DNA of 32,198 nucleotides from positions 1 to 32,198 of the IMG/VR virus record IMGVR_UViG_3300025120_000283; one strand, 5' to 3'. The position numbers were made by a program, and so were the translations under genes. Source of the DNA: a virus. Shown piece by piece: positions 51-27,429 of this stretch (position 1 is the stretch's first letter; the number at the start of each line of letters is the position of its first letter). A model generated the notes under the pieces. That model was given only the letters and a program-made list of their open reading frames with translations, was not told where the DNA came from and ran no database searches.

Positions 51-2513
51 ATGGCCACTAAGTTTAAAAGTTCAGTAGAAGTTGATGGTTATCTATCAAT
101 ATCAAGCGGGAACTGGATCCAAGTACCGGATGGTACGACGGCTCAGCGCCCAGGTTCGCCTACGGTTGGTATGTTCAGATACAATACAACTACAAATGAA
201 TTTGAAGGATACTTTGGCTCACCAGCAGCATGGGGTGCTATTGGTGGAGGTGGTGGTAGTGGTACTGTAACTGAAGCATTTAAAACTTTTGCAGTATCAG
301 GACAAACAAGCATTGTAGCTGATGGTCCTACGGACACTTTAACAGTGGCAGCTGGTAATAATATTAGTCTAACTACAAATGCTTCAACAGACACACTTAC
401 AATTGCTTCTACTGGAGGATCTAGTGGAGGTACAGTTACTATTCAAAGAAATAACTATACTGGTGACGGTTCAACAGTAGCTTATAGTGTTTCTTCTACA
501 GTAATTTCTGAAAACAATATACAAATATATTTAGATGGTGTTTACCAAGATAAAGATGGATTTACAGCATCTGGTACTACAGTAACATTTGGTACAGCAC
601 CACCGGCAACTACTGCAATAGAGATAATGCATTACGTTGCAGTTGATGGCGTTGTAGAAGTTGATGAATTTGTAGGCGATGGTACTACTACTAACTTTGC
701 TACATCTTTATCTATAATAAATGAAAATGCAACAACAGTATTTGTAAGTGGTGTATATCAGTCTAAGTTAACATATCAAACTACAGGTAATGTAGTATCA
801 TTTACAACAGCACCACCAAACGGTGCTAATATAGAAATAGTTCATGTAAAAGCTTTAGCTTTAAGTGGATTTAATAAGAATAATTTTGTAGGTACAGGTT
901 CTCAAACAGCATTTACTTTAAATACTACTGTAACTGAAGAGAATATGACCTTTGTGTTTTTAGAAGGTATTTACCAAGATAAAAGTACATACGGAATATC
1001 AGGTACAACATTAACATTTGCAACTGCACCTCAAAGTGGTTACAATGTAGAGGTAATGGTATTAGGTGCTATATCAGCATCGACAAATGCCTTATACACA
1101 GACACTTTTACAGGTGATGGTACAGAAACTGATTATACTCTTGGTATAACACCAGTAGATTTAAATGCTATTGAAGTATACCTAAATGGTTTATATCAAA
1201 ACGTAGGTACGCTTACATTAGCTGCCAATGTGGTTACTTTTGCTACGCCACCACCTAGTGGTGTTATAATAGAGATTAGATCTGTAGGTTTTTTAAATTC
1301 AGGTGGTACATTAGCACCTGCAACTTTAACAGGAGGCACTGGTATAAGTGTAGTAACTAATTCACCTAATAACTTTACAATAAGTAATACACTTGTAGAT
1401 GTAACCGTATCTTTTAATGCGCCTACTGGTCAAGGTTTAACATATACTACACCTGCAACTTCAACAGGTCAAGCTGGATCAATATTTCCTACAACAACTT
1501 TTACAGTTACAAAATCAGGAAACACTTTAAGTGGTACTGCAGTAATAACCGGCTTACCGGCTGGAATAACTAGTACTCAGAGTTATAATAATACTAATAC
1601 TGATAATATTTTAACAATAACTTTATCTGGTGTTTATCCTAGTACTAATTCAATTGGTACAAATTTAGTTATATCTGGATTAACCGTAGTACAAGCTTTA
1701 AGAGTTTCATATTTAGTTGTTGCTGGCGGAGGAGGTGCTGGTGGTGGTGGTGGTGGTGGAGGTGCAGGTGGTTTACGCGCATCTTATGGTTCAGTAACTG
1801 GTGGCGGAGGTTCTGCTGAATCTTTTTTAGCATTGTCAATAGGAACTAATTACGCCGTAACAGTAGGAGGTGGAGGTAGCGGCGGGGTTTATAGATCTGC
1901 TGGAACTGCTGGGTCTGATTCTGTTTTTTCTACTATAACAGCTACAGGAGGAGGAACAGGCGCTGGGTTTAATCAAAACACTGGAACAATATTAGATGGA
2001 GGTTCTGGTGGAGGGGGTGCAAATGCTGCAACAAATCCGGGATATATAAATGGAGGCTCTGCTGTTACCTCACCTACTGTTCAAGGTTATGCAGGAGGTC
2101 GCGGGCATAGAACTGCACCCAGTTGGAATGCTTTTGGTGGAGGCGGGGGTGCCGCATCAGCAGGTGGTGATGGTGGAGGAACCGGATCAACTCCTATAGG
2201 AGGTGTTGGAGGCAATGGTTTATCTGTGTCAATAACTGGTTCAGCTGTAACTTATGCTGCTGGGGGAGTTGGAGGTGCAGAAATTGGATCTCAATCCCAA
2301 GCCGCTCCACAACCTGTTAACACAGGTAACGGAGGAGATCAAGTTAATAATGCTAATGTAAATATAACGGGTGGAATAGGCGGTTCAGGAATAGTAATAT
2401 TAAGATATCCATCTAGTTTTACCATATCTGGACTATCAGGTACAACAACTACAGTAGGAACTGATTCAGTTACTACATTCACATCAGGAACAGGTAATAT
2501 ACAATTTAACTAA
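51..2513 (+). CDS. Modular tail fibre / glycine-rich adhesin, 820 aa
   Basis: This is a structural protein, most likely a distal tail fibre or adhesin that contacts the host surface. Residues 1-65 are a fibre-type N-terminus with the TTAQRPGSPTVGMFRYNT segment common in phage fibres. Residues about 133-413 hold four copies of a roughly 72-residue unit, each reading approximately F-x-GDGS-x-T-x-F, then V-x-L-x-G-x-YQ, then VTFxTAPPxG and IEI. Residues about 453-550 form an Ig-like domain. From about 553 to 785 the chain is extremely Gly-rich, starting YLVVAGGGG and closing GSGIVILRYP, which resembles the Gly_rich_2/polyglycine adhesin type. The Ig, Gly-rich and C-terminal parts are paralogous to the next gene. 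The stop overlaps that gene's ATG by 1 nt. The fibre role is well supported; the receptor is unknown. Confidence 0.8.
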   Translation: MATKFKSSVEVDGYLSISSGNWIQVPDGTTAQRPGSPTVGMFRYNTTTNEFEGYFGSPAAWGAIGGGGGSGTVTEAFKTFAVSGQTSIVADGPTDTLTVAAGNNISLTTNASTDTLTIASTGGSSGGTVTIQRNNYTGDGSTVAYSVSSTVISENNIQIYLDGVYQDKDGFTASGTTVTFGTAPPATTAIEIMHYVAVDGVVEVDEFVGDGTTTNFATSLSIINENATTVFVSGVYQSKLTYQTTGNVVSFTTAPPNGANIEIVHVKALALSGFNKNNFVGTGSQTAFTLNTTVTEENMTFVFLEGIYQDKSTYGISGTTLTFATAPQSGYNVEVMVLGAISASTNALYTDTFTGDGTETDYTLGITPVDLNAIEVYLNGLYQNVGTLTLAANVVTFATPPPSGVIIEIRSVGFLNSGGTLAPATLTGGTGISVVTNSPNNFTISNTLVDVTVSFNAPTGQGLTYTTPATSTGQAGSIFPTTTFTVTKSGNTLSGTAVITGLPAGITSTQSYNNTNTDNILTITLSGVYPSTNSIGTNLVISGLTVVQALRVSYLVVAGGGGAGGGGGGGGAGGLRASYGSVTGGGGSAESFLALSIGTNYAVTVGGGGSGGVYRSAGTAGSDSVFSTITATGGGTGAGFNQNTGTILDGGSGGGGANAATNPGYINGGSAVTSPTVQGYAGGRGHRTAPSWNAFGGGGGAASAGGDGGGTGSTPIGGVGGNGLSVSITGSAVTYAAGGVGGAEIGSQSQAAPQPVNTGNGGDQVNNANVNITGGIGGSGIVILRYPSSFTISGLSGTTTTVGTDSVTTFTSGTGNIQFN
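447..1293 (+). repeat. Four tandem ~72-codon repeats inside the 820-aa fibre gene
   Basis: Four consecutive units begin near 447, 663, 879 and 1101. Each encodes an F/Y-x-G-[DT]-G-[ST] opening, a middle [VI]-[FY]-[LV]-x-G-[VIL]-YQ motif and a closing TAPPxG-x-x-IE-[IV] motif; copy 3 has TAPQSG and copy 4 has TPPPSG. Conservation is at protein level and the nucleotide copies have diverged, so this is an old duplication of a beta-rich fibre domain rather than a recent slippage array. Confidence 0.8.
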
Positions 2514-4000
2514 TGGCATTAACAAAATTAACAAGTAACCTTATTGAAGGTGGTACTGGTACGGATTGGGTAACAGCAATTCAGACAAGCAACTTTACGG
2601 CAGAAGCTGGTAAAGGTTATTTTGTTAACACAACTAGTCAAGTTTTATATGTAAACTTACCAGTGGGTGTTGTAGGTATGGAAATAACCATACAAGACTA
2701 TGCTGGTACATTTGCAACTAATAAAGTTATACTCAATGCTAATGGCTCTGAAAAAATTCAAGGTTCAGCTTACGAAGGTAGAATAAATACTAACAATGCT
2801 ACTGCAGTTTTAATATACCAAGATGCAACTAAAGGATGGACATCTCAAGATGTAGAATTAGATTTAAATACTATTTCATGGGCTACACCTACAGGGCAAA
2901 GCCTAACATATAGTACTCCATCACCTCAAAGTTCACAAGGTGCAACAGGTGTAACTTTTCCAACTACAACTTTTACAGCTACAAAAGCGGGAAGCACAAT
3001 AAGTGGTACAGCTACCATAGCTGGATTACCTTCTGGTATTACAGCCGCTCAAACTATAACTGGTAGCGGCTTGGGTAACACATTAACTGTTACTTTAACA
3101 GGTACTTTTCCATCTACAGACTCTTTAAATACTGCTTTAACTTTATCTGGGTTAACAATAGCAACACCTTTTTTAGTTGATTATTTAGTGGTTGCCGGCG
3201 GCGGTGGTGGAGCAATAGGTGGAGGTGGTGCAGGAGGATTAAGGACATCTTGGCCCGGAGGATCTGGTGGTGGTGGTAATTCTGAATCATCTTTATCTTT
3301 AAATATTGCTACAAATTATAATGTAGCAATTGGTAGTGGTGGTAGCTATGGTAACAATAGTTCACAAGCCTCTAATGGTGGAAATTCTTCTATTGCGGGT
3401 TCTGGATTAACTACTATAACATCTATTGGTGGTGGTGGTGGCGCTCATGCACCAAGCGCTGGTTCAGATGGATCTATTGGCGGCTCAGGAGGTGGTGGTG
3501 GATTTGGTGATACTAGTGCTACATATGACGGTGGTTTAGGAACCGCTAATCAAGGATTTAGAGGAGGCTCCGGAAGTAGACTTGGCGGCGGCGGCGGCGC
3601 TGGAGCTGGAAGTACTGGAGGTAATCGCAGCGGAAATAATGGAGGCCCCGGAGGCAATGGTTTAAGCCTTAATATTAGTGGAACCGCTACATATTATGCT
3701 GGTGGTGGTGGTGGTGTTTCTTGGAATGCTTACAATGCACCCGGAGGATCTGGTGGGGGAGGTAATGGTGGAAGTTCAGCCTCCACAAGTGGGAGAACAT
3801 CTGGAACAGCTAATACCGGTGGCGGTGGTGGTGGCGCGTGGCAAACAGGAGATAATGGCGGCTCAGGAGTGGTTATAATTAGATACCCAAATACAAAAAC
3901 AATTACCGCAGGGGCGGGATTAACAGCAACAACTGCAGCAGTTGGAACAGATAGTGTAACAACATTTACCGCTGGTACAGGAACAATAACATTTAGTTAA
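2513..4000 (+). CDS. Glycine-rich adhesin, paralogue of preceding fibre, 495 aa
   Basis: Residues 1-115 begin MALTKLTSNLIEGG, an N-terminus type shared with the 148-residue gene at 7103. Residues about 121-216 are an Ig-like domain with PTGQSLTYSTP and TISGTATIAGLPSGI, closely matching the same region of the upstream 820-residue protein. From about 223 to 460 there is a long polyglycine-rich segment (YLVVAGGGGG to GSGVVIIRYP). The C-terminus carries VGTDSVTTFTAGTGTI, nearly identical in plan to the upstream protein. Stacked polyglycine helices are known in T-even-type adhesins such as the S16 gp38 tip; a similar architecture here is inference. Translational coupling is likely because the ATG overlaps the previous stop by 1 nt. 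Confidence 0.75.
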   Translation: MALTKLTSNLIEGGTGTDWVTAIQTSNFTAEAGKGYFVNTTSQVLYVNLPVGVVGMEITIQDYAGTFATNKVILNANGSEKIQGSAYEGRINTNNATAVLIYQDATKGWTSQDVELDLNTISWATPTGQSLTYSTPSPQSSQGATGVTFPTTTFTATKAGSTISGTATIAGLPSGITAAQTITGSGLGNTLTVTLTGTFPSTDSLNTALTLSGLTIATPFLVDYLVVAGGGGGAIGGGGAGGLRTSWPGGSGGGGNSESSLSLNIATNYNVAIGSGGSYGNNSSQASNGGNSSIAGSGLTTITSIGGGGGAHAPSAGSDGSIGGSGGGGGFGDTSATYDGGLGTANQGFRGGSGSRLGGGGGAGAGSTGGNRSGNNGGPGGNGLSLNISGTATYYAGGGGGVSWNAYNAPGGSGGGGNGGSSASTSGRTSGTANTGGGGGGAWQTGDNGGSGVVIIRYPNTKTITAGAGLTATTAAVGTDSVTTFTAGTGTITFS

Positions 4001-4001
4001 T

Positions 4002-4346
4002 ATGGCACATTACGCATTTTTAGACATGGCTAACGTAGTAACCGAAGTAATAGTAGGTAAAGACGAAGGCGATACAAATACAAACTGGGAATTACAATAC
4101 CAAGATGTAAGAAAACAAGTTTGTAAAAGAACTTCTTATAATACAATTGGTGGTGTACACTCAGGTGATGGCACCCCTTATAGAAAAAACTATGCAGGCA
4201 TAGGATATACTTATGACTATGCTCGTGATGCATTTATTCCACCTAAGCCTAATGCAGAATTCATTTTAAATGAAACAACATGTTTATGGGATGCACCAGA
4301 AGGTTGGGTAGATCCAAATGCAATAGAAAAAGAAGAAGCATCATAA
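4002..4346 (+). CDS. Small conserved phage protein in the fibre cluster, 114 aa
   Basis: The protein begins MAHYAFLDMANVVTEVIVGKDE and contains RKNYAGIGYTYDYARDAFIPPKP followed closely by LNETTCLWDAPEGW. I recognise this pattern from many marine phage genomes, including cyanophages, where such proteins sit beside tail fibres and are usually unnamed. It has no signal peptide or membrane segment. The aromatic and Gly content suggests a small folded beta domain. It starts 1 nt after the preceding stop. A fibre-associated or short-fibre role is inferred from position only. Confidence 0.7.
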   Translation: MAHYAFLDMANVVTEVIVGKDEGDTNTNWELQYQDVRKQVCKRTSYNTIGGVHSGDGTPYRKNYAGIGYTYDYARDAFIPPKPNAEFILNETTCLWDAPEGWVDPNAIEKEEAS

Positions 4347-4357
4347 TAAAACAATAA

Positions 4358-7096
4358 ATGGCACAAACCAAACCTAAAGCAGGGCAATTTTACGGCGTAT
4401 CTAATGATGGTACAGATGGAGAGTTTCTACAAACTGATGGTACGGGTGGAATGGCTTGGGCATCACCAATAACGAATCCTACCATTACATCTATTGATTA
4501 TCCAGGAAGCACTACAGCAGCAGATCCTGCAGGTGGTCAAAGTGTTATTATTAATGGTACATTATTTGCTTCAGGTATTACATGTACAGTAGGCGGAACA
4601 TCAGCTGTAACAGCTTTTAACTCTGCTACGCAGATTACAATAACTACACCAGCTAAAGCAGCTGGGCCTTATACAGTTGCTGTTTTAAATACAAATGGAG
4701 GTACAGCTTCAGAAAATAACTTTATACAGTATAGCGGTGTGCCGGTGTGGTCAACAGCAGCAGGTACATTAGGTAATGTTCTAGAAGGTGTAGCAGCTTC
4801 TTTTCAAGTAACAGCTACCGAAGGTAGTGATACTATAGAGTATGCAGTAACTACAGGTACTTTACCAACAGGTTTATCTTTAGCTACAGCTACAGGAGCT
4901 ATAACAGGGACAGCACCTGCAGTATCAGCAGATACAACAACAACATTTAGCATCACAGCTACAGATGATGAAAATCAAACTAGTGCTTCTAGATCTTTTA
5001 GTATAACAGTTCAAAACGACGCGCCTAGTAATCATTTTAATACTGTTTTATATACAGGGAATAGTAGCACTCAAGCTATAACTGGTGTAGGTTTTGCTCC
5101 AGATTTTGTTTGGATGAAAAGAAGAAATAGTACTGAAGATCATGCTCTTTACGACAGCGTTAGGGGTACTAATAAACAGCTTTCTAGTAATACTAGCTCG
5201 ACAGAAGCTACTAATTCATCTCCATACTTAGGTTTAACATCTTTTGATTCAGATGGATTTACTTCTGGAAATAATGGTGGTACTAATAGAAGTCCTAATA
5301 CATACGTAGCTTGGAGTTGGGAGGCAGGTGGAAACTCAAATACTTTTAATGTAGATGGAACCGGGTATTCAACAGCAAGTGCCGCAGGATTGACTACTGG
5401 TAGTTTAACCCCTACTGGTGCAAGTGTAAACACAGCAAATGGCTTTAGCATTATTACACTTAATAGCGGAAGTTCAACAGCAGATGTTACAGTATCACAC
5501 GGGCTTGGAGTTAAGCCATCTTTTGTTTTATTTAAAAAGTTAAATAGTGAAGGAGGAGGTTGGTTTGCTTGGTCGGCAGGTTTATCTCCAGAAAGCTACT
5601 ATCTTTATTTAAATGATGATTATGGTGTTGGAAATTTATCACAAAGTGGAAACGCTTGGGGTAATCAAAGTTTTACCTCAGATGTTATTAGTTTTAGAAG
5701 CGGCTGGACTGTTGAAACAAATAGAGATGTAGTCATCTATGCTTGGGCAGAAATTCCTAGCTATTCTAAGATGGGGAGTTATACTGGAACAGGTGTAGCA
5801 GGTAATACTGTTATGACGGTATTTGAACCTGCTTTTGTAATAATAAAAAGATCAAGCGGAACAGGTGAATGGTATATGTTTGACAACAAAAGATTAACAG
5901 GAAGTTATAGCGATCAGTTAGCAGCAAATAGTAGTGCAGCAGAAGCAACAGGAACGTATGTAAAATTTCTTGCAAATGGTTTTCAGTTAAACACCGCAGC
6001 TAGTAATTTAAATGAAAATGGCAGTACATTTATCTACATGGCATTTGCAGCTGACGGTTCTACGGCAACACCTAGTTTAGCTAATAGTTTTGCTACTGAG
6101 TTGTATACAGGGAATGGAAACAATCAAACCATTACAAACGTTGGATTTAATAGTGATTTTACTTGGACAAAAAGTAGAACACAAACAACAGAAAATTGGT
6201 TATTTGATACCATGAGAGGTAGTGGTAATTACATTAGTAGTAATACAACAGGATCAAACATAACTGCTTGGTCAAATTATGGTGTTCATTTTGATATTAC
6301 AAATGGTTTTACTGTTAAAGATGATTCAAGTGGTGGATATTACATGAACAAACCTAGTGCAACATATGCAACTTGGAACTGGAAAGCTGGAGGTACACCA
6401 TCTATAAACACTGATGGAACTATAAAAAGTTTAGTTTCAGCAAATCAAGCTGCAGGGTTTAGTATTGTTCAATATACAGGGACTGGAAGCCTAGCTACTG
6501 TAGGTCACGGGTTATCAGCTGCACCTGAATTAATTTTAGTTAAAAATACCTCTGCTAGTGCAAGTTGGGCGGTTTATTCTGTGCCAACAGGAATAAATAA
6601 ATTTCTTGAATTAAATTCACCCAGTGGAGCAGCTTCATATTCTAATTATTGGGGAGCAGCTACACCTACAAATGATGTGTTTGGTGTTGTTAATGGAAAT
6701 TTTAATAATAACGCAACCAATGCTTCTTTGATTGCCTACGCTTTCCATTCAGTTGCTGGCTATTCTAAGATAGGGTCTTATACTGGAAATGGAAGTACAA
6801 CAGGACCAATTGTAGACACAGGATTTGAGCCTTCTTGGGTAATGATTAAATCATCAAGTAGTGATGACGGTGGCGGTGGGGCTTGGCTAATTTATGATAA
6901 TAAAAGAAGTACTTCAAATCCAAGAAATAAAAGATTATATGCAAATTACAACGCTGCCGAAGCAACTAACGCAAATTATGATTTAGATTTTCTTACAGCA
7001 TCACCAGAGGGGTTTCAACCTAAATATGGAACAAGCTCATGGGGATTTAATACATCTGGCGTAGAATATATCTATATGGCAATAAAAGAAAATTAA
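4358..7096 (+). CDS. Large modular tail fibre with TIG, He_PIG and duplicated DUF7483-like units, 912 aa
   Basis: Residues 1-35 are a fibre N-terminus with DGTDGEFLQTDGTGGMAW. Residues about 40-125 look like an IPT/TIG Ig-like domain (GQSVIINGTLFASGITCTVGG). Residues about 128-222 fit He_PIG, with TGTLPTGLSLATATGAITGTA. The rest is two copies of a large beta-rich unit, about 226-570 and 577-912. Each unit has YTGN-x-x-x-Q-x-IT-x-VGF near its start, a DGFT segment, a W-x-W-[EK]-AGG motif, then a YSK-[MI]-GSYTG motif and an FEP-[AS] motif. A third copy forms the C-terminal half of the 560-residue gene at 7551. I associate this unit with Pfam DUF7483. The protein is probably a receptor-binding or side fibre. 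Confidence 0.75.
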   Translation: MAQTKPKAGQFYGVSNDGTDGEFLQTDGTGGMAWASPITNPTITSIDYPGSTTAADPAGGQSVIINGTLFASGITCTVGGTSAVTAFNSATQITITTPAKAAGPYTVAVLNTNGGTASENNFIQYSGVPVWSTAAGTLGNVLEGVAASFQVTATEGSDTIEYAVTTGTLPTGLSLATATGAITGTAPAVSADTTTTFSITATDDENQTSASRSFSITVQNDAPSNHFNTVLYTGNSSTQAITGVGFAPDFVWMKRRNSTEDHALYDSVRGTNKQLSSNTSSTEATNSSPYLGLTSFDSDGFTSGNNGGTNRSPNTYVAWSWEAGGNSNTFNVDGTGYSTASAAGLTTGSLTPTGASVNTANGFSIITLNSGSSTADVTVSHGLGVKPSFVLFKKLNSEGGGWFAWSAGLSPESYYLYLNDDYGVGNLSQSGNAWGNQSFTSDVISFRSGWTVETNRDVVIYAWAEIPSYSKMGSYTGTGVAGNTVMTVFEPAFVIIKRSSGTGEWYMFDNKRLTGSYSDQLAANSSAAEATGTYVKFLANGFQLNTAASNLNENGSTFIYMAFAADGSTATPSLANSFATELYTGNGNNQTITNVGFNSDFTWTKSRTQTTENWLFDTMRGSGNYISSNTTGSNITAWSNYGVHFDITNGFTVKDDSSGGYYMNKPSATYATWNWKAGGTPSINTDGTIKSLVSANQAAGFSIVQYTGTGSLATVGHGLSAAPELILVKNTSASASWAVYSVPTGINKFLELNSPSGAASYSNYWGAATPTNDVFGVVNGNFNNNATNASLIAYAFHSVAGYSKIGSYTGNGSTTGPIVDTGFEPSWVMIKSSSSDDGGGGAWLIYDNKRSTSNPRNKRLYANYNAAEATNANYDLDFLTASPEGFQPKYGTSSWGFNTSGVEYIYMAIKEN
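6735..6788 (+). repeat. Direct repeat, copy 1 (partner at 8920-8973)
   Basis: A 54-nt stretch in the 912-residue fibre gene matches 8920-8973 in the 560-residue fibre gene at 48 of 54 positions by hand alignment. It encodes the AYAFHSxAGYSKIG segment of the DUF7483-like unit. Other similar stretches pair around 5040-5115 and 8280-8355. These are short homologies that could support recombination between fibre genes. Confidence 0.8.
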
Positions 7097-7102
7097 TAAA
7101 AA

Positions 7103-7549
7103 ATGGCTTTAACAAAAGTAACAAGTAACGTACTAGCAGACAATGCTGTAACAACGGGTAAAATCCTAGATTCAAATGTAACAACAGGTAAGCTAGCAAC
7201 AAGTAGCGTTACTAGTGTTAAAGTGGGTACTGAGTTTACAACAGCTAATGCTTTAACAGCAGCAGCTACAATTGATGTAGACTATACAGCAGCTCAGGTA
7301 TTTACATTGACGCCTAATGCTAATACTACACTTAATATAACTAATGCTGTTATCGGTGTAAGTAAAGTTATAGTTGTAACTGGCGCAGGTGGCTCATATA
7401 CAGTAGGTTTTACAGTAGGCGGATCAGCAGGTACATTTAACAAAATATCTGGGGACTACAGTGATACTGCAGCTGCTAAAAATTTTATACAAATCACATG
7501 TGTAGGTGCCACTGAGTTCTGGTACACTATTTCACAAATAGCAGTTTAA
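7103..7549 (+). CDS. Short fibre-like structural protein, 148 aa
   Basis: The N-terminus MALTKVTSNVLADNAVTTGKI and the following NVTTGKLATSSV repeat are a typical phage fibre attachment pattern. The start is shared with the 495-residue adhesin (MALTKLTSN). The remainder is Thr/Val/Ala-rich beta sequence ending FIQITCVGATEFWYTISQIAV, as in short trimeric fibre tips. There is no membrane segment. It lies between two DUF7483-like fibre genes with gaps of 6 nt and 1 nt, so it is probably co-translated with them. It could be a short spike or a spacer protein; the exact role cannot be read from the sequence. Confidence 0.65.
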   Translation: MALTKVTSNVLADNAVTTGKILDSNVTTGKLATSSVTSVKVGTEFTTANALTAAATIDVDYTAAQVFTLTPNANTTLNITNAVIGVSKVIVVTGAGGSYTVGFTVGGSAGTFNKISGDYSDTAAAKNFIQITCVGATEFWYTISQIAV

Positions 7550-7550
7550 T

Positions 7551-9233
7551 ATGTTTGGACAAAGTTTACTCTCAGCTTTTGGTTCTACCGCTTGTACTAC
7601 AAATGATTTAAATTATCCTATAACTAATTTAGCATACTATAAAATGTCAAATGCTACAGATCAGTTAGGTAATTACAATGGTACAGCTACAAACGTAAAC
7701 TTTAACGTAGCAGGTAAGTTTGGTAATGCAGGTGAGTTTAATGGAAGTAGTAGTGAAATAAATTTAGGAACTTCATCAAATTTTTCAATAACAACAACTG
7801 GAGCTTTATCTGGAAGTATGTGGGTAAAAACAACAGATACTAGCGCTAGCTATCTTATATCAAAAGCTAATGATGCTTCTGGAAATTACGAATGGGCAAT
7901 AGAATATGGTTATCCTACTGGAAAGATGAAGCTAAATGTTTATAATACAGCAGCTGGATTTGCAGCTTCAGTTACCAACAACACTACTATTAATGATGGT
8001 AATTGGCATCATCTAGCATTTGTTATAGTAAATAATACATCTGTGTCTTTATATATTGATGGTGGTACACCCGCAACAAGTACAAGCTGGTCTGGGACTG
8101 CAGGCAGCTTTTCAATTCCAACTCTTATTGGTCATTTTGGTGGTATTTCAGCACCTACTTCTTGGTGGAACGGCACAATAGACCAAGTAAGAATATTCTC
8201 TTCAGCTTTAAACGCCTCTGAAGTAACACAGCTTTACGATGAGATTTACTGTGTGCCTACTATAGTGCCTACAGACTATTTTAATCCTGTTTTATATACA
8301 GGAAATGGTGGTACTCAATCCGTAACTGGTGTAGGGTTTAAGCCAGATTTAGTTTGGGTAAAAGCTAGACAAGCAGGTATAAGCCATATACTTATTGATT
8401 CAGTTCGAGGAGTTTCAAGACAACTAGCTTCGAATGCTAGTGAACAAGAGTATTTTAATTCAGGTAAGCAAACGACTGCATTTAATGCGGATGGATTTAC
8501 TGTAGTTGACCAAACGAATGGCGGTTTTGGAGTAAATGGTGCGCCTGGACAAACTTACTCAGGAACAAATGCTTATTACGTTTCTTGGAACTGGAAAGCA
8601 GGAGGTGCGGCAGTATCAAATACAGATGGTACAATAACAAGTCAAGTATCGGCTAATGTAGATGCAGGGTTTAGTATTATTAGTTATACAGGAGCATCAG
8701 GAACGGTAGGTCACGGTTTAGATTCTACTCCTGAAATAATTATACAAAAGAAAACAAATGGTACTGAGGATTGGTATGTGTATTTTCCTCCAGGTGTTAT
8801 TAATTCAAATTATAATTATATGGTTTTGAATACAAGTAATACTGGAATAGGTACAACTGGTTCAACCCCTCCAACAACAACAACTTTTAATCCTGTTTCA
8901 AATTCTGGAAATTACATAGCCTACGCTTTCCATTCAATAGCAGGTTATTCTAAGATAGGCACTTATACTGGAACAAGTGTAGCAAATCATTCTATTGTGA
9001 CAGGGTTTAAGCCTGCTTGGGTAATGATAAAAAATACTAATAGTGGATATAGTTGGATTATTACCGATGATAAAAGAACTACAGACAAAATACTTTATGC
9101 AAATCTTTCTCAAGGTGAAGATACTACATCTAATGGTATTACTTCTTTCGATTCTAATGGATTTACCTTAGGAACTGCGGTAAGTTTTAATCAGAATACA
9201 AATGTTTACATTTTTATGGCATTTGCCGAATAA
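7551..9233 (+). CDS. LamG-like plus DUF7483-like tail fibre, 560 aa
   Basis: Residues about 21-237 fit a concanavalin-A-like LamG_3 domain: YYKMSNATDQLGNYNGTA, then FNGSSSEINLG, WVKT, DGNWHHLAFV, LYIDG, and WNGTIDQVRIFSSALNASEV at the end. Such domains often bind glycans. Residues about 244-560 are one copy of the DUF7483-like unit found twice in the 912-residue gene (YTGNGGTQSVTGVGF, WNWKAGG, YSKIGTYTG, FKPAWVMIKN). A likely role is a glycan-binding fibre. The domain swap relative to the 912-residue gene suggests modular recombination using the nucleotide-level repeats between them. It is the last gene of the fibre block; a 34-nt AT-rich gap follows. Confidence 0.75.
   Translation: MFGQSLLSAFGSTACTTNDLNYPITNLAYYKMSNATDQLGNYNGTATNVNFNVAGKFGNAGEFNGSSSEINLGTSSNFSITTTGALSGSMWVKTTDTSASYLISKANDASGNYEWAIEYGYPTGKMKLNVYNTAAGFAASVTNNTTINDGNWHHLAFVIVNNTSVSLYIDGGTPATSTSWSGTAGSFSIPTLIGHFGGISAPTSWWNGTIDQVRIFSSALNASEVTQLYDEIYCVPTIVPTDYFNPVLYTGNGGTQSVTGVGFKPDLVWVKARQAGISHILIDSVRGVSRQLASNASEQEYFNSGKQTTAFNADGFTVVDQTNGGFGVNGAPGQTYSGTNAYYVSWNWKAGGAAVSNTDGTITSQVSANVDAGFSIISYTGASGTVGHGLDSTPEIIIQKKTNGTEDWYVYFPPGVINSNYNYMVLNTSNTGIGTTGSTPPTTTTFNPVSNSGNYIAYAFHSIAGYSKIGTYTGTSVANHSIVTGFKPAWVMIKNTNSGYSWIITDDKRTTDKILYANLSQGEDTTSNGITSFDSNGFTLGTAVSFNQNTNVYIFMAFAE
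8920..8973 (+). repeat. Direct repeat, copy 2 (partner at 6735-6788)
   Basis: Second copy of the 54-nt repeat, in the 560-residue LamG/DUF7483-like fibre gene. Six mismatches to copy 1 were counted by eye. Confidence 0.8.
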
Positions 9234-21406: not shown

Positions 21407-24400
21407 ATGCCAGAAATTAAAAGAACATTTAATCGCGGTAAAATGAACCGTGATTTAGATTCTAGAATCGTGCCGGCGGGTGAATACCGAGAAGCTTTTA
21501 ATGTTAACATAGGACAATCAGAGGGCTCAGACGTAGGTGCAATTGAAAATTTACTAGGTAATGAATTAGTAGCAGCTTCTAGTATTAATAATGGTAAATG
21601 CATAGGAGAAGTAAGCGATAATAAAACAGAAAAAATATATTTTTTTGTTACTAGCAATAACTCATATAACGAAACCAATTCTGGGCAACACGGTCTTTTT
21701 GAATATGATCAAAAAACAAAACAAACTACTACTTTAATTATAACTACTCAATTAAACTTGCATCAAGATTATCCTATTACGGGAATAAACATTGTTGATG
21801 ATCTTTTGTTTTGGACGGATAATAGGAATTGTCCTAGAAAAATTAATGTTGTTACGGCTAGAAATAATATTAACTATTATACATCAGCAGCAGACATTGA
21901 CAATTTAACTTCAGTCGCCAAGTTTGCTCCTTACGAAGCTCTTACTTTAGTAGAAGCAGTTAAAGATGCCAGCATAACATCAACGTTTATGCAGGATAAA
22001 TTAATTAGATTTTCATATAGATGGCAATTTGATGATAGCGAGTATAGTACTTTAGCACCCTTTAGCCCTATAATATTTTCTAGACTAAGTGAAACTGATA
22101 CAATTAGCTCTGCATTAGGTAATTTTGGTGAAATTGAAACTTTTGTAAATGCAATTAATCAAGTTAAATTGCAAATCCCAACCCCTACGGGTTATGGTAT
22201 TACTAATGTAGAATTAATTTACCAAGAAACAGGAAACGGAACACTTTATGTTGTAGACGATTTAGAAGTTACAACAGAGCCTTTTGTTAATTTTACATAT
22301 TCATCAACTGATCCATTTAGAACGTTACCTCCGGATCAACTTACTAGAGTATACGATGCGGTTCCTAGAAAAGCGTTAGCGCAAGATGTAGCCGGTGGTA
22401 GATTAGTTTATGGAAACTTTTTACAAAACTTTAATCTTCCGCAAATTGCTTTTACGGTAGCAAGAACAGGTGAAACATCTTCAAGAAATAATATACTTTC
22501 AAATCAATCTGTAAAATCTAGGCGTACATACCAAGTAGGTATTGTATTAGCAGATAAATTTGGAAGGCAATCTCCTGTAATACTATCAAGTTCTGGAGTA
22601 GACACTGTGTTTGTAGATCCAGGGTATGGTAATTCAGCATCTACAACGGCTTTTAACGCATTAAGAATTACATTTACAGACACTACTCAAATACCTGATT
22701 GGGCATATTCTTACAGGGTTGTTGTTAAGCAAAGAGAACAAGAATATTATAATTGGATATCAATTATTACTGGAGCAAATAATATTGAAAGACTAGGCGA
22801 CAGTATAAATAAAATACCAAGAGATCCAACCGCTGTAATACCACCAAGTACTTCATCAACAATATCTCCATGTGATATTTCTGTGTATCCTAAATATTTA
22901 AACGGAGGTAATGTATATACTGCTGCATACGCTGGTTTAACTTCAGTGCAATCTATAGAAAATCCTACGGGGGATGCTTTAGTTACTACTGTAGATAATA
23001 GCGGTAGTGCTGTAAGCTCTGGATTATGTGTATTTGAAACAGAACCTATAAGCTCTGAACTTGACATATTTTTTGAAACTTCAACAGGAGGGTTAATAAG
23101 CGAAATACCAGCTACAGCAATAGACATAGCTTTTTTTAATTGTATATTATTAACTTTTGATCCAGGAGGAAGTGGAGATGATCATATAGAAATAAATAGA
23201 ATTAGAGCTGGTTTTAATGAAAATGCTTTTAACGTGGGAGTTAGAGCATATGTTGTTAAAGAAAACTTTACAGAAGAAAGAAGAGGTAATACTTTAATTC
23301 ACTCTAGTGGGCTTTTAAATTCACGAACAGGTATTAACTATATAAATCAATTTAACGAGAGTGAGGGCGGCTTAACAATATCCCTTGACCCTCAAGATGG
23401 CTCAGTGCAAAAGCTATTTACTGATGATACTTCAATAAATGTATTTCAAGAAGATAAAGTGTCTAGATCACCTATTAATAAAGACTTTATATATTCAGCA
23501 GAAGGAGGTGCAGTTCCAGTTACTAGTAATACACAATTTTTAGGAACAATAGCGCCGTTTGCTGGGCAATACGGTATTGCTACAGACCCTCAATCTTTTG
23601 CTTCTTTTGGTTTTTCAAAATACTTTACAGATAGAAACAAAGGGGTTGTTTTAAAACTTTCGCAAAATGGAATACAAGAAATTTCAACATCTGGATTAGG
23701 TGATTTTTTTAGAGACGCATTAAAATCAGCAGATGCAGTGATTGGTTCTTTTGATGAATATAGCAGAAATTATGAATTAACAATAACAGGCAGCGGGCTT
23801 GACGGCAATGCTGATACCAATGTGGCTACCGCCAGCGAAGGTTACTTAACAGTTTGCTTTGACGATAGATCTAATGGATGGACTTCTTTTAGAGGGTTTA
23901 AGCAAGAAGGAGGTTTGTCTTTAAACAATAGTTTTTATACTTTTAACGGAGGTAGTTTATGGCAACATCACAGTCCTAATGTAACTAGAAATAACTTTTA
24001 CGGAACATCATCACAAGAATCTTATGTAATACCTATATTTAATGATGCTGCTTCGCTTGTAAAACAATTTAACGCCTTTTCTTACGAAGGAACATCAGGT
24101 TGGGAAGTTGACTATATAGAAACAGATATAAATACTATCGGTACTGTACCTACGGTAGCAACAACATTTAATACTACATTACAATTAAACGGAGCTGCTA
24201 GTAATTCTATATTTAACGGAGCAAACACAAGCGTTAATAAACAAGGTGAGCAAATATTTTGGGCTATATTTGTTTCTCCATTAAATTCTCAATACAAATT
24301 TTCTAATGTTAATAATGTTACATTGACCCAAGGTTCAGGAAGTAGTTTAACAATTGAAAGCCCCTCGTCTATTACAGATGAGCGTCTTGTATTTAGAATA

Positions 24401-25405
24401 TCTCACGTTGTGGGTAGTTCTAATACTATTCAAACGCTTGACATTGGAGGCAATGGAGCAGAGTTGGCATTTACAGTGGCCTTATTAACAGTAAATACTG
24501 TAGATACTGTTTCAAATGCAGCATTAACACCAGCTTCTCAAATATTTAACTCAGCAGGAGCTAACTTTATACAATTTTCAACAGCAGTATTTAATAATTA
24601 TTATGTTGACAATGCTAACATTACCATTAATACTAGTGGAATGCCTGCTAGCACCAATATAGGAGTGCCTACAGCAACGCAAAACGGAGATAATATTAAT
24701 TATTCAGTTCCAGTTACTGTGCCAACATCTGCAACAGCAGGTGTTATAACTGTTACAGGATTTGCAATAATAAAACCAACGCTAACATGGACGGCAATAG
24801 CTAGTCCCGGTATTTTAACTACGCCAACAGGAACAGCTGCTGGAGTTCCATATTATATTGCTCCTTATGATAATGCAAGCTTAAGATTAGCAACTATTGT
24901 ATATACTTGTTTAGCCAACGAAGTTTTAAGTGCTTCATCTAGAACGGTATCTTATGCTCCGTTGTCTCCAACAATTACAACTGTGTTGAGCAATCAAGAT
25001 GGTATTTTAACATTTAATATACAATTTGCCAGCATTACTGTAGACACTGTAGCTACTGCTGTTTTAGGCGGCTCTGGAGCTGAGGTAGCAACATTAGGAG
25101 CAATACCTACAACAGGAAATTTAGTTACAGCTGGGACCGCTATAACTATAACAAATACTTGGAATGTTGATATTAGTGTAACTCCAGAAGAGTATCCAGC
25201 TTCACCAAATGGATTTGGCACGAACTGGATTAAATTTAACGGGAACATTGGTACATCTGTTGTTGAGCCTGGAGCTAGCTTTACTATTAGCGCGGACGCT
25301 AACGCCACTGGTTCTTCAAGAACTGTTAATGCAAGGATTGCATGTGATAATTCTAGAATAAATCCAGTGTTAGCTAATAAAACAATAACAATAACTCAAG
25401 CATAA
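21407..25405 (+). CDS. Large tail nozzle/stabilisation-type protein with BACON-like C-terminus, 1332 aa
   Basis: This is the longest complete gene. The N-terminus (MPEIKRTFNRGKMNRDLDSR, then EYREAFNVNIGQSEGSDVGA) is a pattern I associate with tail nozzle/stabilisation proteins of crAss-like and other short-tailed marine phages. The body is beta-rich, with repeated blocks such as TYQVGIVLADKFGRQSPV and PDWAYSYRVVVKQREQEYYN, plus YEGTSGWEVDYIE at about 894-906. Residues about 980-1240 look like Ig-like beta domains. Residues about 1240-1332 resemble BACON: TWNVDISV, NWIKFNGNIG, GASFTISADANATGSSRTVN, ARI and a terminal TITITQA. BACON modules are often glycan- or mucin-associated, so host or surface binding at the tail tip is possible. 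Confidence 0.7.
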   Translation: MPEIKRTFNRGKMNRDLDSRIVPAGEYREAFNVNIGQSEGSDVGAIENLLGNELVAASSINNGKCIGEVSDNKTEKIYFFVTSNNSYNETNSGQHGLFEYDQKTKQTTTLIITTQLNLHQDYPITGINIVDDLLFWTDNRNCPRKINVVTARNNINYYTSAADIDNLTSVAKFAPYEALTLVEAVKDASITSTFMQDKLIRFSYRWQFDDSEYSTLAPFSPIIFSRLSETDTISSALGNFGEIETFVNAINQVKLQIPTPTGYGITNVELIYQETGNGTLYVVDDLEVTTEPFVNFTYSSTDPFRTLPPDQLTRVYDAVPRKALAQDVAGGRLVYGNFLQNFNLPQIAFTVARTGETSSRNNILSNQSVKSRRTYQVGIVLADKFGRQSPVILSSSGVDTVFVDPGYGNSASTTAFNALRITFTDTTQIPDWAYSYRVVVKQREQEYYNWISIITGANNIERLGDSINKIPRDPTAVIPPSTSSTISPCDISVYPKYLNGGNVYTAAYAGLTSVQSIENPTGDALVTTVDNSGSAVSSGLCVFETEPISSELDIFFETSTGGLISEIPATAIDIAFFNCILLTFDPGGSGDDHIEINRIRAGFNENAFNVGVRAYVVKENFTEERRGNTLIHSSGLLNSRTGINYINQFNESEGGLTISLDPQDGSVQKLFTDDTSINVFQEDKVSRSPINKDFIYSAEGGAVPVTSNTQFLGTIAPFAGQYGIATDPQSFASFGFSKYFTDRNKGVVLKLSQNGIQEISTSGLGDFFRDALKSADAVIGSFDEYSRNYELTITGSGLDGNADTNVATASEGYLTVCFDDRSNGWTSFRGFKQEGGLSLNNSFYTFNGGSLWQHHSPNVTRNNFYGTSSQESYVIPIFNDAASLVKQFNAFSYEGTSGWEVDYIETDINTIGTVPTVATTFNTTLQLNGAASNSIFNGANTSVNKQGEQIFWAIFVSPLNSQYKFSNVNNVTLTQGSGSSLTIESPSSITDERLVFRISHVVGSSNTIQTLDIGGNGAELAFTVALLTVNTVDTVSNAALTPASQIFNSAGANFIQFSTAVFNNYYVDNANITINTSGMPASTNIGVPTATQNGDNINYSVPVTVPTSATAGVITVTGFAIIKPTLTWTAIASPGILTTPTGTAAGVPYYIAPYDNASLRLATIVYTCLANEVLSASSRTVSYAPLSPTITTVLSNQDGILTFNIQFASITVDTVATAVLGGSGAEVATLGAIPTTGNLVTAGTAITITNTWNVDISVTPEEYPASPNGFGTNWIKFNGNIGTSVVEPGASFTISADANATGSSRTVNARIACDNSRINPVLANKTITITQA

Positions 25406-25406
25406 T

Positions 25407-25646
25407 ATGGCAACAATAGTAAATTTTCCATTTCAAGAAAAAGAGGGTAAATATTTTGCACCTATAAGTTCATCTGAATCAAATTATATTGTTGTTAATG
25501 GTGTTTTAACGGCTACTGAAAATAAAATAGTTAGTGGTATTAAAGGAGCTTTTGCAACTGTTAAATTGTCTTTACCGGTTACTCAATCTTCAATTAAAAA
25601 AGAATTATTTGCATTTAATACAGAAACTATATACTCTTCAACTTAA
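25407..25646 (+). CDS. Small conserved hypothetical protein, 79 aa
   Basis: MATIVNFPFQEKEGKYFAPI begins a beta-rich protein (SNYIVVNGVLTATENKI; GAFATVKLSLPVT). It has no signal peptide, membrane segment or catalytic motif. It is 1 nt from the tail gene and 5 nt from the GNAT-like gene, so it belongs to the same transcript. A minor virion component is possible, but nothing in the sequence fixes a role. Confidence 0.55.
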   Translation: MATIVNFPFQEKEGKYFAPISSSESNYIVVNGVLTATENKIVSGIKGAFATVKLSLPVTQSSIKKELFAFNTETIYSST

Positions 25647-25651
25647 ATTAT

Positions 25652-26092
25652 ATGAAATTACAAGTACGAAAATTACAAGAATCCGATTGGGATTTTTTAC
25701 CAAAATGGTGGGAAGCTTATAAGTCAGAAGGCTTTCCGCGCGACTTTTTGCCTGGTTCATTTAAAATAAATGATGATCAAAAAGAGGATAAAAAAGGTTT
25801 AGGCGGCTTTATGGTTTGCAAAGGAAAAGATCCTATTGCGGCTATGTGGCTGTGGATGACAAATAGTAAGACTGCAATTCCAGCTGTTGTTATAAGCGAT
25901 AAGTTTTATCAAGATACGGACAGAAGTGATGCATTGCAACTCTTAGTAGATTTTACCACTGATTTTGCAGAAGACATGGGTTATAAATACGCATTTGCTT
26001 GGGCAAAAAGGGGTATATTATTAGAAAAATATAAAAAAGCGGAGTATTATGTAGATGAAACTCCATCTTATGAATTAATAATGAAATACTAA
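25652..26092 (+). CDS. GNAT-like acetyltransferase-fold protein, 146 aa
   Basis: MKLQVRKLQESDWDFLPKWW resembles the first strand and helix of GNAT enzymes (V-R-x-L-x-x-x-D). The middle has LGGFMVCKGKDPIAAMWLWM, the central strands, and AIPAVVISDKFYQD. A helix follows (ALQLLVDFTTDFAEDMGYKY), and the end is AEYYVDETPSYELIMKY. The usual acetyl-CoA loop (Q/R-x-x-G-x-G/A) is not clear; the DRSDALQ region may replace it, so activity is uncertain. Similar genes appear among virion genes of short-tailed phages, where they may be structural or modify a protein. It ends on the next gene's ATG (1-nt overlap). Confidence 0.6.
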   Translation: MKLQVRKLQESDWDFLPKWWEAYKSEGFPRDFLPGSFKINDDQKEDKKGLGGFMVCKGKDPIAAMWLWMTNSKTAIPAVVISDKFYQDTDRSDALQLLVDFTTDFAEDMGYKYAFAWAKRGILLEKYKKAEYYVDETPSYELIMKY

Positions 26093-27429
26093 TGGGAAGT
26101 ATAGTAAAAGGAGTTGGATCACTTTTTGGCGGTCGAGCCAGAAGAAGAGAGCAAAGTGCTGCAAATAAAGAATTTGAAGCTGCAAAAAAAGGCGTTACAG
26201 AATTTAACTTTAAAGATCCGTTTGCGGATTTAGAAGCAAATAAACTTGGAACAGCCACTGAATATGATGCTATTAATGCAAAAGCAGTAGGCGATCCGCT
26301 TGGAGCTGCAAATCAAGCAAAAATGGGAAACATAAATGACTCTCGGGGGTTTGGGGCATTTACGGATAGTGCTGTAGGGTACACAGCACAAAATACTAAT
26401 GTTGCGGGATTAGCTAGAGGAGCAGACACAGGACTTACTAATACGTTTAATCAAACACAAGTAAATACTGCGCAAGCTGCCATGGATGCTCAAGAAGCAG
26501 ATCAAACCCTTGCCGCGTCTCAAGATTTAATAGCACAAACAGGTGGTGGAGGTGCAACAGCATTAGCTGCTGCGGCCGCAAAATCTAAGGCTGGTATAGC
26601 TGCTAGTATAGGTCAACAAGAATCGGCTAATGAAATAAGAAGAGCATCAGCTGAATCTACATTACAGCAACAGCAATTAGCTCAAGGAAATTTAGGTTCT
26701 CAGTTTGATTTAGGACAATCTCAATTTAATGCTACCGCTAGCAATGATCAAATGAAATTTAATGCTGGGCAAACCAACCAAATGGCCATGGCTAATATGG
26801 ATGCTCAAAATCGAGCTGCTCAATTTGAAGCAAGCGCATTTAATACATCTAATTTGCAGCAATATGATTCTCAAAATAAAATGAATCAATATAACGTTAC
26901 CGCGCAAAATGCTAATGCAGCTGCTCAATTTGGAGCAGATAATAAATTTGCTTTAGCCAATCAACAAGCGGGTATGGCGGCTGCTGAATTTGGGGCTCAA
27001 GCTCAAAATCAATTTGCAATGCAAAATCAAAAGCAATTAAATGCTTTTAATATAAGACAAGCTGATGGCGCTAGAGATATACAAGAAAGTCAATATGCCC
27101 AAGAAACAGACACGTTTGGGATTGCATCTGGTAGAAAAATGGCAGCAGACAATGCTAGAAAACAAGCAAAAAGCGACTTAATGGGCGGAATCACCGGGGC
27201 ATTAGCGCTGTCCGATAGAAGGCTTAAAAAAAATATTAAATTAATAGGTTTATCGCCCTCTGGTATTAAAATATATAGATTTAAATATAAAGATAATAGC
27301 TTTGGAAAAGGAATTTATCAAGGTGTTATGTCAGATGAAATAACACAACAAGCTGTTGTAACAGGCAAAGACGGTTTTGATCGTGTAGATTATAGCTTAT
27401 TAGATGTTGAATTTAAATTAATAAAATAA
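26092..27429 (+). CDS. Ala/Gln-rich internal (ejected) virion protein with S74-like end, 445 aa
   Basis: Residues 1-30 (MGSIVKGVGSLFGGRARRRE) form a short Gly-rich, basic amphipathic segment typical of ejection proteins. Residues about 115-350 are very rich in Ala, Gln and Asn with a recurring heptad-like pattern (for example QFGADNKFALANQQAGMAAA), indicating a long helical bundle. Residues about 370-445 resemble the Peptidase_S74 intramolecular chaperone: SDRRLKK at 374-380, then GIKIYRFKYK and KGIYQGVMSDEI. Ser374 and Lys379 fit the S/K dyad of S74. S74 usually follows trimeric fibres, so its place after a helical protein is unusual. It may be an internal core protein or a helical fibre. 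The gene starts on the previous stop codon. Confidence 0.6.
   Translation: MGSIVKGVGSLFGGRARRREQSAANKEFEAAKKGVTEFNFKDPFADLEANKLGTATEYDAINAKAVGDPLGAANQAKMGNINDSRGFGAFTDSAVGYTAQNTNVAGLARGADTGLTNTFNQTQVNTAQAAMDAQEADQTLAASQDLIAQTGGGGATALAAAAAKSKAGIAASIGQQESANEIRRASAESTLQQQQLAQGNLGSQFDLGQSQFNATASNDQMKFNAGQTNQMAMANMDAQNRAAQFEASAFNTSNLQQYDSQNKMNQYNVTAQNANAAAQFGADNKFALANQQAGMAAAEFGAQAQNQFAMQNQKQLNAFNIRQADGARDIQESQYAQETDTFGIASGRKMAADNARKQAKSDLMGGITGALALSDRRLKKNIKLIGLSPSGIKIYRFKYKDNSFGKGIYQGVMSDEITQQAVVTGKDGFDRVDYSLLDVEFKLIK

Follow-up and report, generated by a model that had tools for sequence, protein, structure and literature searches.

What kind of domain closes the long tail protein encoded at 21407-25405 (+) of an uncultured virus, and what might it do there? 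The ORF, of 1332 aa, lies in a window of 32,198 nucleotides, which is the whole stretch of DNA that we analysed (IMG/VR record IMGVR_UViG_3300025120_000283). A previous sequence-only reading recognised in its last ~90 residues, whose motifs are present as that reading listed them, a BACON-like domain appended after Ig-like repeats to a nozzle-like protein; the domain was proposed to place a glycan-binding module at the tail end and to support a Bacteroidota host. The features discussed below are collected in Table 1.

The nozzle-like carrier is, more precisely, a crAss-like tail muzzle protein, an assignment of its first 910 aa that is based on profile searches and modelling. The core matched PHROG 14478 at 1.2e-110, and the Pfam family crAss_MUZ_C (PF25729) was recognised at aa 860-910, over profile positions 2-51 of 83. 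Searches with tblastn retrieved the corresponding gene in phages Cellulophaga phi38:1, Calle, Flavobacterium elemo and Maribacter Panino (28-32% identity), and these alignments to isolate muzzles stop at or before aa 912, never beyond. The upstream genes, coding for the terminase, the portal and virion structural proteins, stand in the order known from phi38:1. For the core model, which is of low confidence (pLDDT 57), the top Foldseek matches were 7qol_P and 7qok_A, both being the muzzle of phicrAss001 (E 3-5e-10, prob 1.00), with all remaining matches at E > 1e-2; hhalign aligned the family with phicrAss001 gp44 over the N-terminal 212 columns only, at 73% probability. Since ~380 fewer residues precede MUZ_C than in gp44 (start at aa 860 vs 1244), the crass-fold domain may be reduced or absent in the window muzzle.

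Table 1. Predicted features of the muzzle locus in the window. Ig-like domains 1 and 2 were read from a model of aa 1-1125.
Feature	Position	Strand	Extent and basis
Muzzle core, crAss-like tail muzzle protein	21407..24136	+	aa 1-910; PHROG 14478, phage relatives, Foldseek
Truncated crAss_MUZ_C	23984..24136	+	PF25729 4e-6; match stops at arm start
Ig-like domain 1 of arm	24158..24472	+	aa 918-1022; beta-sandwich strands, block pLDDT mostly 76-86
Ig-like domain 2 of arm	24473..24775	+	aa 1023-1123; beta strands, block pLDDT mostly 78-88
Ig-like domain 3, proximal half of exchangeable tip	24776..25099	+	aa 1124-1231; model pLDDT 94
BACON domain, terminal tip of arm	25100..25402	+	aa 1232-1332; PF13004, 3zmr superposition, W1274/N1299/R1305/Q1331
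C-terminal motifs		+	TWNV (W1252); NWIKF aa 1273-1277; NGNIGTSVVEPG; FTISADANATGSSRT aa 1292-1306; ARI 1309-1311; TITITQA 1326-1332
ORF79, separately encoded muzzle C-terminal end	25407..25646	+	rest of MUZ_C and last strands

Judging by sequence and model together, we consider the terminal domain to be a true BACON domain, as the sequence-only reading had suspected; its start was placed at 25126, and the model moves it ~26 nt upstream (~25100, aa 1232). A profile search brought up the Pfam BACON family PF13004 over aa 1273-1332 (profile positions 10-61 of 61), with an E-value of 2.2e-4 for the full protein and of 4e-5 for the trimmed end. The score of the window tip, 21.6-23.9 bits, is slightly below the curated cut-off of 25 bits, and that of the six-frame search of the whole record, 25.3 bits, is above it. 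The family behaves more clearly: 21 of 26 relatives' tips scanned singly matched PF13004 (best 5.6e-8). With a small model of bacterial BACONs, 29 of the 54 distinct real tips outscored the best of 5400 shuffles, the window tip itself scoring low (5.4 bits). The W, N, R and Q residues regarded as diagnostic of BACON (de Jonge 2019, PMC6949934) are kept almost throughout these 54 tips: W1274 and Q1331 in every one, R1305 in 53 and N1299 in 51. Herein, the diagnostic tryptophan is W1274 of NWIKF; W1252, that of the W-x-V motif, is kept in 18 tips and is not diagnostic.

The structural evidence points in the same direction. An AlphaFold2 model of aa 1124-1332, comprising the third Ig-like domain (Ig3) and the BACON, is confident (mean pLDDT 94.3), and its tip superposes on the Bacteroides BACON of BoGH5A (3zmr), the best single-domain match in the PDB, with an rmsd of 2.4 A over 98 columns (probability 1.00, E 3e-3, 15% identity). 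Multi-domain Ig chains reached similar E-values against the two-domain model, but at an rmsd of >12 A, and among viral structure models the top match was annotated as a BACON-domain protein. In the reverse direction, a profile built from the phage tips and run against 149 flavobacterial genomes matched proteins in 6 of them (best E 7.3e-8); the six proteins scanned all carry PF13004, five being polysaccharide-lyase-like and one a GH5. Among flavobacterial BACON proteins, those closest to the phage tips (L141, L142, L144, L145 and L147) are chondroitinase-B/PL6-type enzymes; most of them also carry F5/8-type-C domains, and three bear a Por secretion tag. Searched by sequence, the PDB yielded nothing significant for either the entire protein or the profile of the tip, and the tip matched no PHROG family.

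It might be argued that the domain is only a generic Ig-like one that resembles BACON by chance: the Pfam scores of the window straddle the cut-off, other Ig-like structures also match the two-domain model, and the PDB contained no sequence match to the tip below E 0.2. We find this extremely improbable, given that PF13004 is matched across the family with all four diagnostic residues present, that a reference BACON is the top single-domain structural match and that bacterial BACON proteins were retrieved in the reverse search.

The position of the domain is equally constant. Using the whole protein as query, we fetched 78 related loci from viral contigs, 66 of which were C-terminally complete, and all 67 complete proteins, including that of the window, finish in the same kind of domain. 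A search with the core alone (best 80 of 466 muzzle relatives) added five complete relatives (L098, L101, L115, L120 and L129), again all ending in BACON; thus, the constant BACON end is no artefact of tip-based searching.

The same searches bear on the host. Among the 87 phage records matched, the isolates all come from Flavobacteriia (Cellulophaga, Flavobacterium, Maribacter, Tenacibaculum), and the tip profile matches flavobacterial BACON proteins. Related contigs in MAGs fell mostly into Bacteroidetes bins, and also into Woesearchaeota, Aliivibrio and Ilumatobacteraceae bins; we rejected MAG records as host evidence, the implausible bins probably being misbinned virus contigs. An initial, uninformative search of the MAGs holding related contigs with the tip profile gave no match. 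We take the phage to be an uncultured crAss-like one from the environmental, flavobacterial side of the group. On this indirect evidence, the Bacteroidota host proposed earlier is likely, and no observation speaks against it.

How, then, is the BACON attached to the muzzle? The sequence-only reading was right in placing it after Ig-like repeats; however, it is not simply appended. After MUZ_C position 51 come three Ig-like domains, then BACON, then the stop codon, and this Ig-Ig-Ig-BACON arm of ~420 aa ends in BACON in every complete relative. MUZ_C, on the other hand, runs without a break (profile ~2-83) in phi38:1, elemo, Panino, phicrAss001 and the L135-L139 group, with a short tail behind it. 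Directly 3' of the muzzle gene, an ORF of 78-79 aa (hereafter ORF79) is conserved in 66 of 66 complete relatives, with its start offset by -3 to +5 nt relative to the final base of the muzzle stop codon. The ORF79 profile recognises uninterrupted muzzles at their C-terminal end (L135C 1.4e-10, L137C 7e-8, Panino 5e-5, elemo 1e-3; best of 3000 shuffled sequences 0.13). Furthermore, when ORF79 was joined to aa 840-912 of the window protein, the MUZ_C match extended from positions 2-48 to 2-81 and rose from 32.4 to 39.9 bits, with similar gains in L005 (27.7 to 33.6) and L038 (37.4 to 47.2 bits), while shuffled ORF79 brought none (31.2, 26.2 and 37.3 bits for the window, L005 and L038, respectively). 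Because the joined halves restore the MUZ_C match, we conclude from these profiles that the arm sits within the C-terminal domain of the muzzle and that ORF79 is its severed end. With the end of MUZ_C in the next gene, the arm would depart from the C-terminal region of the polypeptide, and a place at the very tail end, as proposed by the sequence-only reading, is then no more than a possibility.

Small, conserved proteins encoded beside adhesins are in some cases chaperones, and ORF79 by itself matched no Pfam or PHROG family, so one could imagine a small chaperone or connector that adjoins the muzzle by chance. The matches of its profile to continuous muzzles, and the completion of MUZ_C in three of three lineages but with none of the shuffled controls, make this very unlikely. 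A programmed frameshift or read-through joining the two ORFs is likewise disfavoured, since ORF79 starts at five different offsets (-3, 0, +2, +3 and +5) rather than in one frame.

While the domain type at the C-terminus is constant, as seen above, its sequence is not: no part of the gene is exchanged more than this sequence together with Ig3. Mean pairwise identity is 70% in the core vs 33% in BACON, and of the 77 pairs whose cores share ≥93% of their residues, 27 (from 21 loci) have BACONs that are <70% identical. Near-identical cores (~99%) are paired with tips only 40-58% identical, dS being up 5-10 fold. For instance, L005 and L009 share 99.0% of core residues (dS 0.22), but only 43% in Ig3 (dS 1.23) and 42% in BACON (dS 1.02). 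In the case of L027 and L028, the cores are 99.3% identical (dS 0.09) and the tips 59% (dS 0.7-0.8), whereas the L028 tip matches that of L026 (91-96% aa, dS 0.10-0.31), from which its core is distant (dS 0.69); going by these sequences, L028 consists of an L027 core with an L026-like tip. DNA identity falls at the Ig2/Ig3 border; around the stop codon and in ORF79, it is again 95-100%. Grouping the tips with their core sisters was rejected by the AU test for both L005 (p 8e-6) and L028 (p 0.004). Between L034 and L038, the difference is confined to BACON (63%, vs 97% in Ig3). The window core is closest to L001 and L004, and its tip lies near L001-L003, the BACONs of the window and L004 being only 41% identical.

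Taken together, these comparisons show that close relatives swap the Ig3-BACON tip through recombination, with the BACON scaffold always kept. Assembly chimeras are an unlikely cause, since each exchanged tip is common to several contigs (L006-L009, L011 and L073; L005, L018 and L021; L049 and L052). We also rejected a diversity-generating retroelement as the main source of variation, because the differences extend over the entire tip, with indels, saturated synonymous sites and identifiable donors, and on the same grounds in situ positive selection alone.

These observations induce us to propose the following scenario. In this lineage, a four-domain arm is inserted inside MUZ_C and ends the protein, and the remaining C-terminal strands, supplied by the translationally adjacent ORF79, probably dock back in trans. 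The phicrAss001 muzzle is a hexamer (PMC10172136), and by analogy six arms would project from the tail tip, with the Ig domains as a stalk and Ig3-BACON as a host-surface adhesin. The tip is exchanged as one cassette through homologous recombination, with the conserved end of Ig2 on one side and the conserved ORF79 on the other; this retains the BACON scaffold and alters its surface. Where phages contact receptors, exposed terminal modules typically show replacement by divergent alleles. As such replacement is confined here to the exposed terminal module, and as a terminal domain cannot space something farther out, we consider it fairly probable that the tip is a fast-evolving host-surface adhesin. 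Its ligand might be a protein or a glycan of the host outer surface; for a glycan, as assumed by the sequence-only reading, the chances seem to us somewhat below even. Displayed BACON/Ig proteins of gut phages mediate mucosal and epithelial adhesion and retention, with sequence-dependent profiles (PMC13370021).

Would a passive role suffice? The role ascribed to BACON in bacterial enzymes is that of a spacer (PMC11216935), and the domain of BoGH5A, the sole BACON assayed for binding, did not bind any of the substrates offered (PMC9853417). Moreover, W1274, R1305, R1317 and Q1331 look fold-keeping. The tip could accordingly be a cap or a stabilising decoration of the muzzle, its diversity arising from neutral drift and ordinary recombination. 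Yet a spacer makes sense only with something farther out, and BACON is terminal in all complete relatives; in addition, exchange concentrated in the tip between flanks that are 95-100% identical, ORF79 included, is unexpected for a neutral segment of a structural gene. We therefore regard a passive cap as improbable.

Another scenario is that the arm binds the environment, such as mucus or algal and particle polysaccharide, rather than a host receptor, thereby raising host encounters. Binding of this kind has been proposed for Hoc and for the gut-phage BACON adhesins. It would agree with the epithelial binding and retention conferred by the displayed gut-phage proteins (PMC13370021) and with the chondroitinase-B/PL6-type domain, in most cases accompanied by F5/8-C, in five of the six scanned flavobacterial matches. 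The location on a tail muzzle instead of the capsid, however, suits host recognition better, as does rapid cassette exchange, which is less expected from binding to a constant matrix, and we hold this scenario to be rather unlikely.

Besides the spacer role and the negative BoGH5A result mentioned above, the adhesin reading that we favour is weakened by other likely receptor-binding fibres of this phage, with lectin-like and Ig domains, at 4358-9233. Two tail-fibre-like genes of the window (4358-7096 and 7551-9233) share a C-terminal DUF7483 domain (PF24299) and differ in their N-terminal modules, which are TIG and He_PIG in one and Laminin_G_3 (ConA-like lectin) in the other; this suggests module shuffling in that region as well.

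Compared with systems already described, the window BACON resembles that of BoGH5A (PF13004, PDB 3zmr) in profile match, in the four diagnostic residues and in fold. The BoGH5A domain, though, is an N-terminal spacer of a secreted enzyme, while the one in the window is the last domain of a virion protein and, unlike its counterpart, has its sequence exchanged between close relatives. The crAss-BACON family (BACON_2, PF19190), found in the p-crAssphage tail protein, is likewise a BACON on a tail-associated protein of a crAss-like phage (PMC6949934), but in tandem repeats, whereas the window has a single BACON on the muzzle itself, with no tandem array; the BACON_2 profile gave E 0.067 for the window and matched 4 of 26 relatives. 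De Jonge (2019) reported single, non-tandem BACONs away from tail genes and in almost only gut-derived data (PMC6949934). The contigs of that crAss-BACON survey came mostly from gut and sewage (PMC6949934), while the isolated relatives of the window lineage belong to aquatic Flavobacteriia.

With gp44 of phicrAss001 (7qok/7qol, PMC10172136), the window muzzle shares MUZ_C, a core structure match and the gene position after a tail-tubular or ring-type protein. In gp44, MUZ_C is uninterrupted and C-terminal (aa 1244-1333 of 1371), without BACON, while in the window it is interrupted. The variation reported for gp44 consists of insertions into the crass and IG2 domains (PMC10172136) and, unlike that in the window, includes no C-terminal arm with a separately encoded end. 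The muzzles of phi38:1, elemo and Panino, which among isolates come nearest to the window core (28-32% identity over aa 1-912), have a complete MUZ_C and neither the arm nor a Pfam BACON. As for the gut-phage adhesins (PMC13370021), they also combine phage-borne BACON and Ig modules with sequence-dependent binding, but were studied as displayed proteins on human epithelium, the carrier here being a muzzle of a different lineage.

Overall, each of the parts is known already; in the open-access literature that we searched, no paper described a muzzle that carries a BACON, an inserted arm that splits the C-terminal domain of a muzzle over two genes, or BACON tips exchanged as cassettes. The muzzle is a gate opened at infection, and here it bears one BACON as an exchangeable tip. 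The natural allele replacements in near-identical genomes thus offer a ready comparison for what phage BACONs recognise and for whether muzzle arms set host range, and a conserved tail-gate protein can apparently take large modules by dividing its own domain between two genes.

The muzzle is also encoded by two genes in other relatives (L135:7146-12376, L137:1327-7800, L138:5265-11698, L139:3330-9821, L080:5001-11021 and, for Panino, L081:4968-8881). In window residues, the split points lie at ~574 in L135-L139, at ~794-815 in ctfjg026 and at ~667-713 in Panino. Except in Panino, the upstream halves carry unrelated C-terminal extensions of 350-550 aa, in which a Pfam search found nothing significant. 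The two halves are separated in L080 by a gene for a 183-aa 'putative glycosidase'. It is tempting to speculate that crAss-like muzzles have repeatedly been broken open at lineage-specific points: the window lineage, L135-L139 and ctfjg026 would hang an extra module on the upstream half, the rest of the core being supplied in trans. Such 'split-muzzle display' as a general way of mounting exchangeable adhesins is a possibility that we place only a little short of an even chance; if true, it would let phages mount them on an otherwise rigid tail gate.

Some further domains deserve a comment. Downstream in the window, a structural protein (26092-27429, phrog_6121) has a weak match to Peptidase_S74, the endosialidase chaperone, near its C-terminus (E 0.017, below the cut-off). 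In the N-half of the L137 muzzle (1327-6486), aa 218-387 form an inserted Fib_succ_major domain (PF09603, 3.7e-19). Ig2 contains an inserted domain of ~90 aa (alignment columns ~1190-1320) in about half of the relatives, e.g., at L038:9301-9600 and at the same place in L030, L037, L044, L046, L049, L055, L061, L070 and L072. This insert matches PHROG families of tail fibres and baseplates (phrog_30742 at 4e-21, phrog_677 and phrog_708), but neither Pfam nor a sequence search of the PDB gave a significant match. It shows a cupredoxin-like ligand pattern, HPLRFS ... YYYCSNHSGMGG (H..C-x2-H-x2-M). Such features suggest a mobile and possibly metal-binding domain common to other phage tails.
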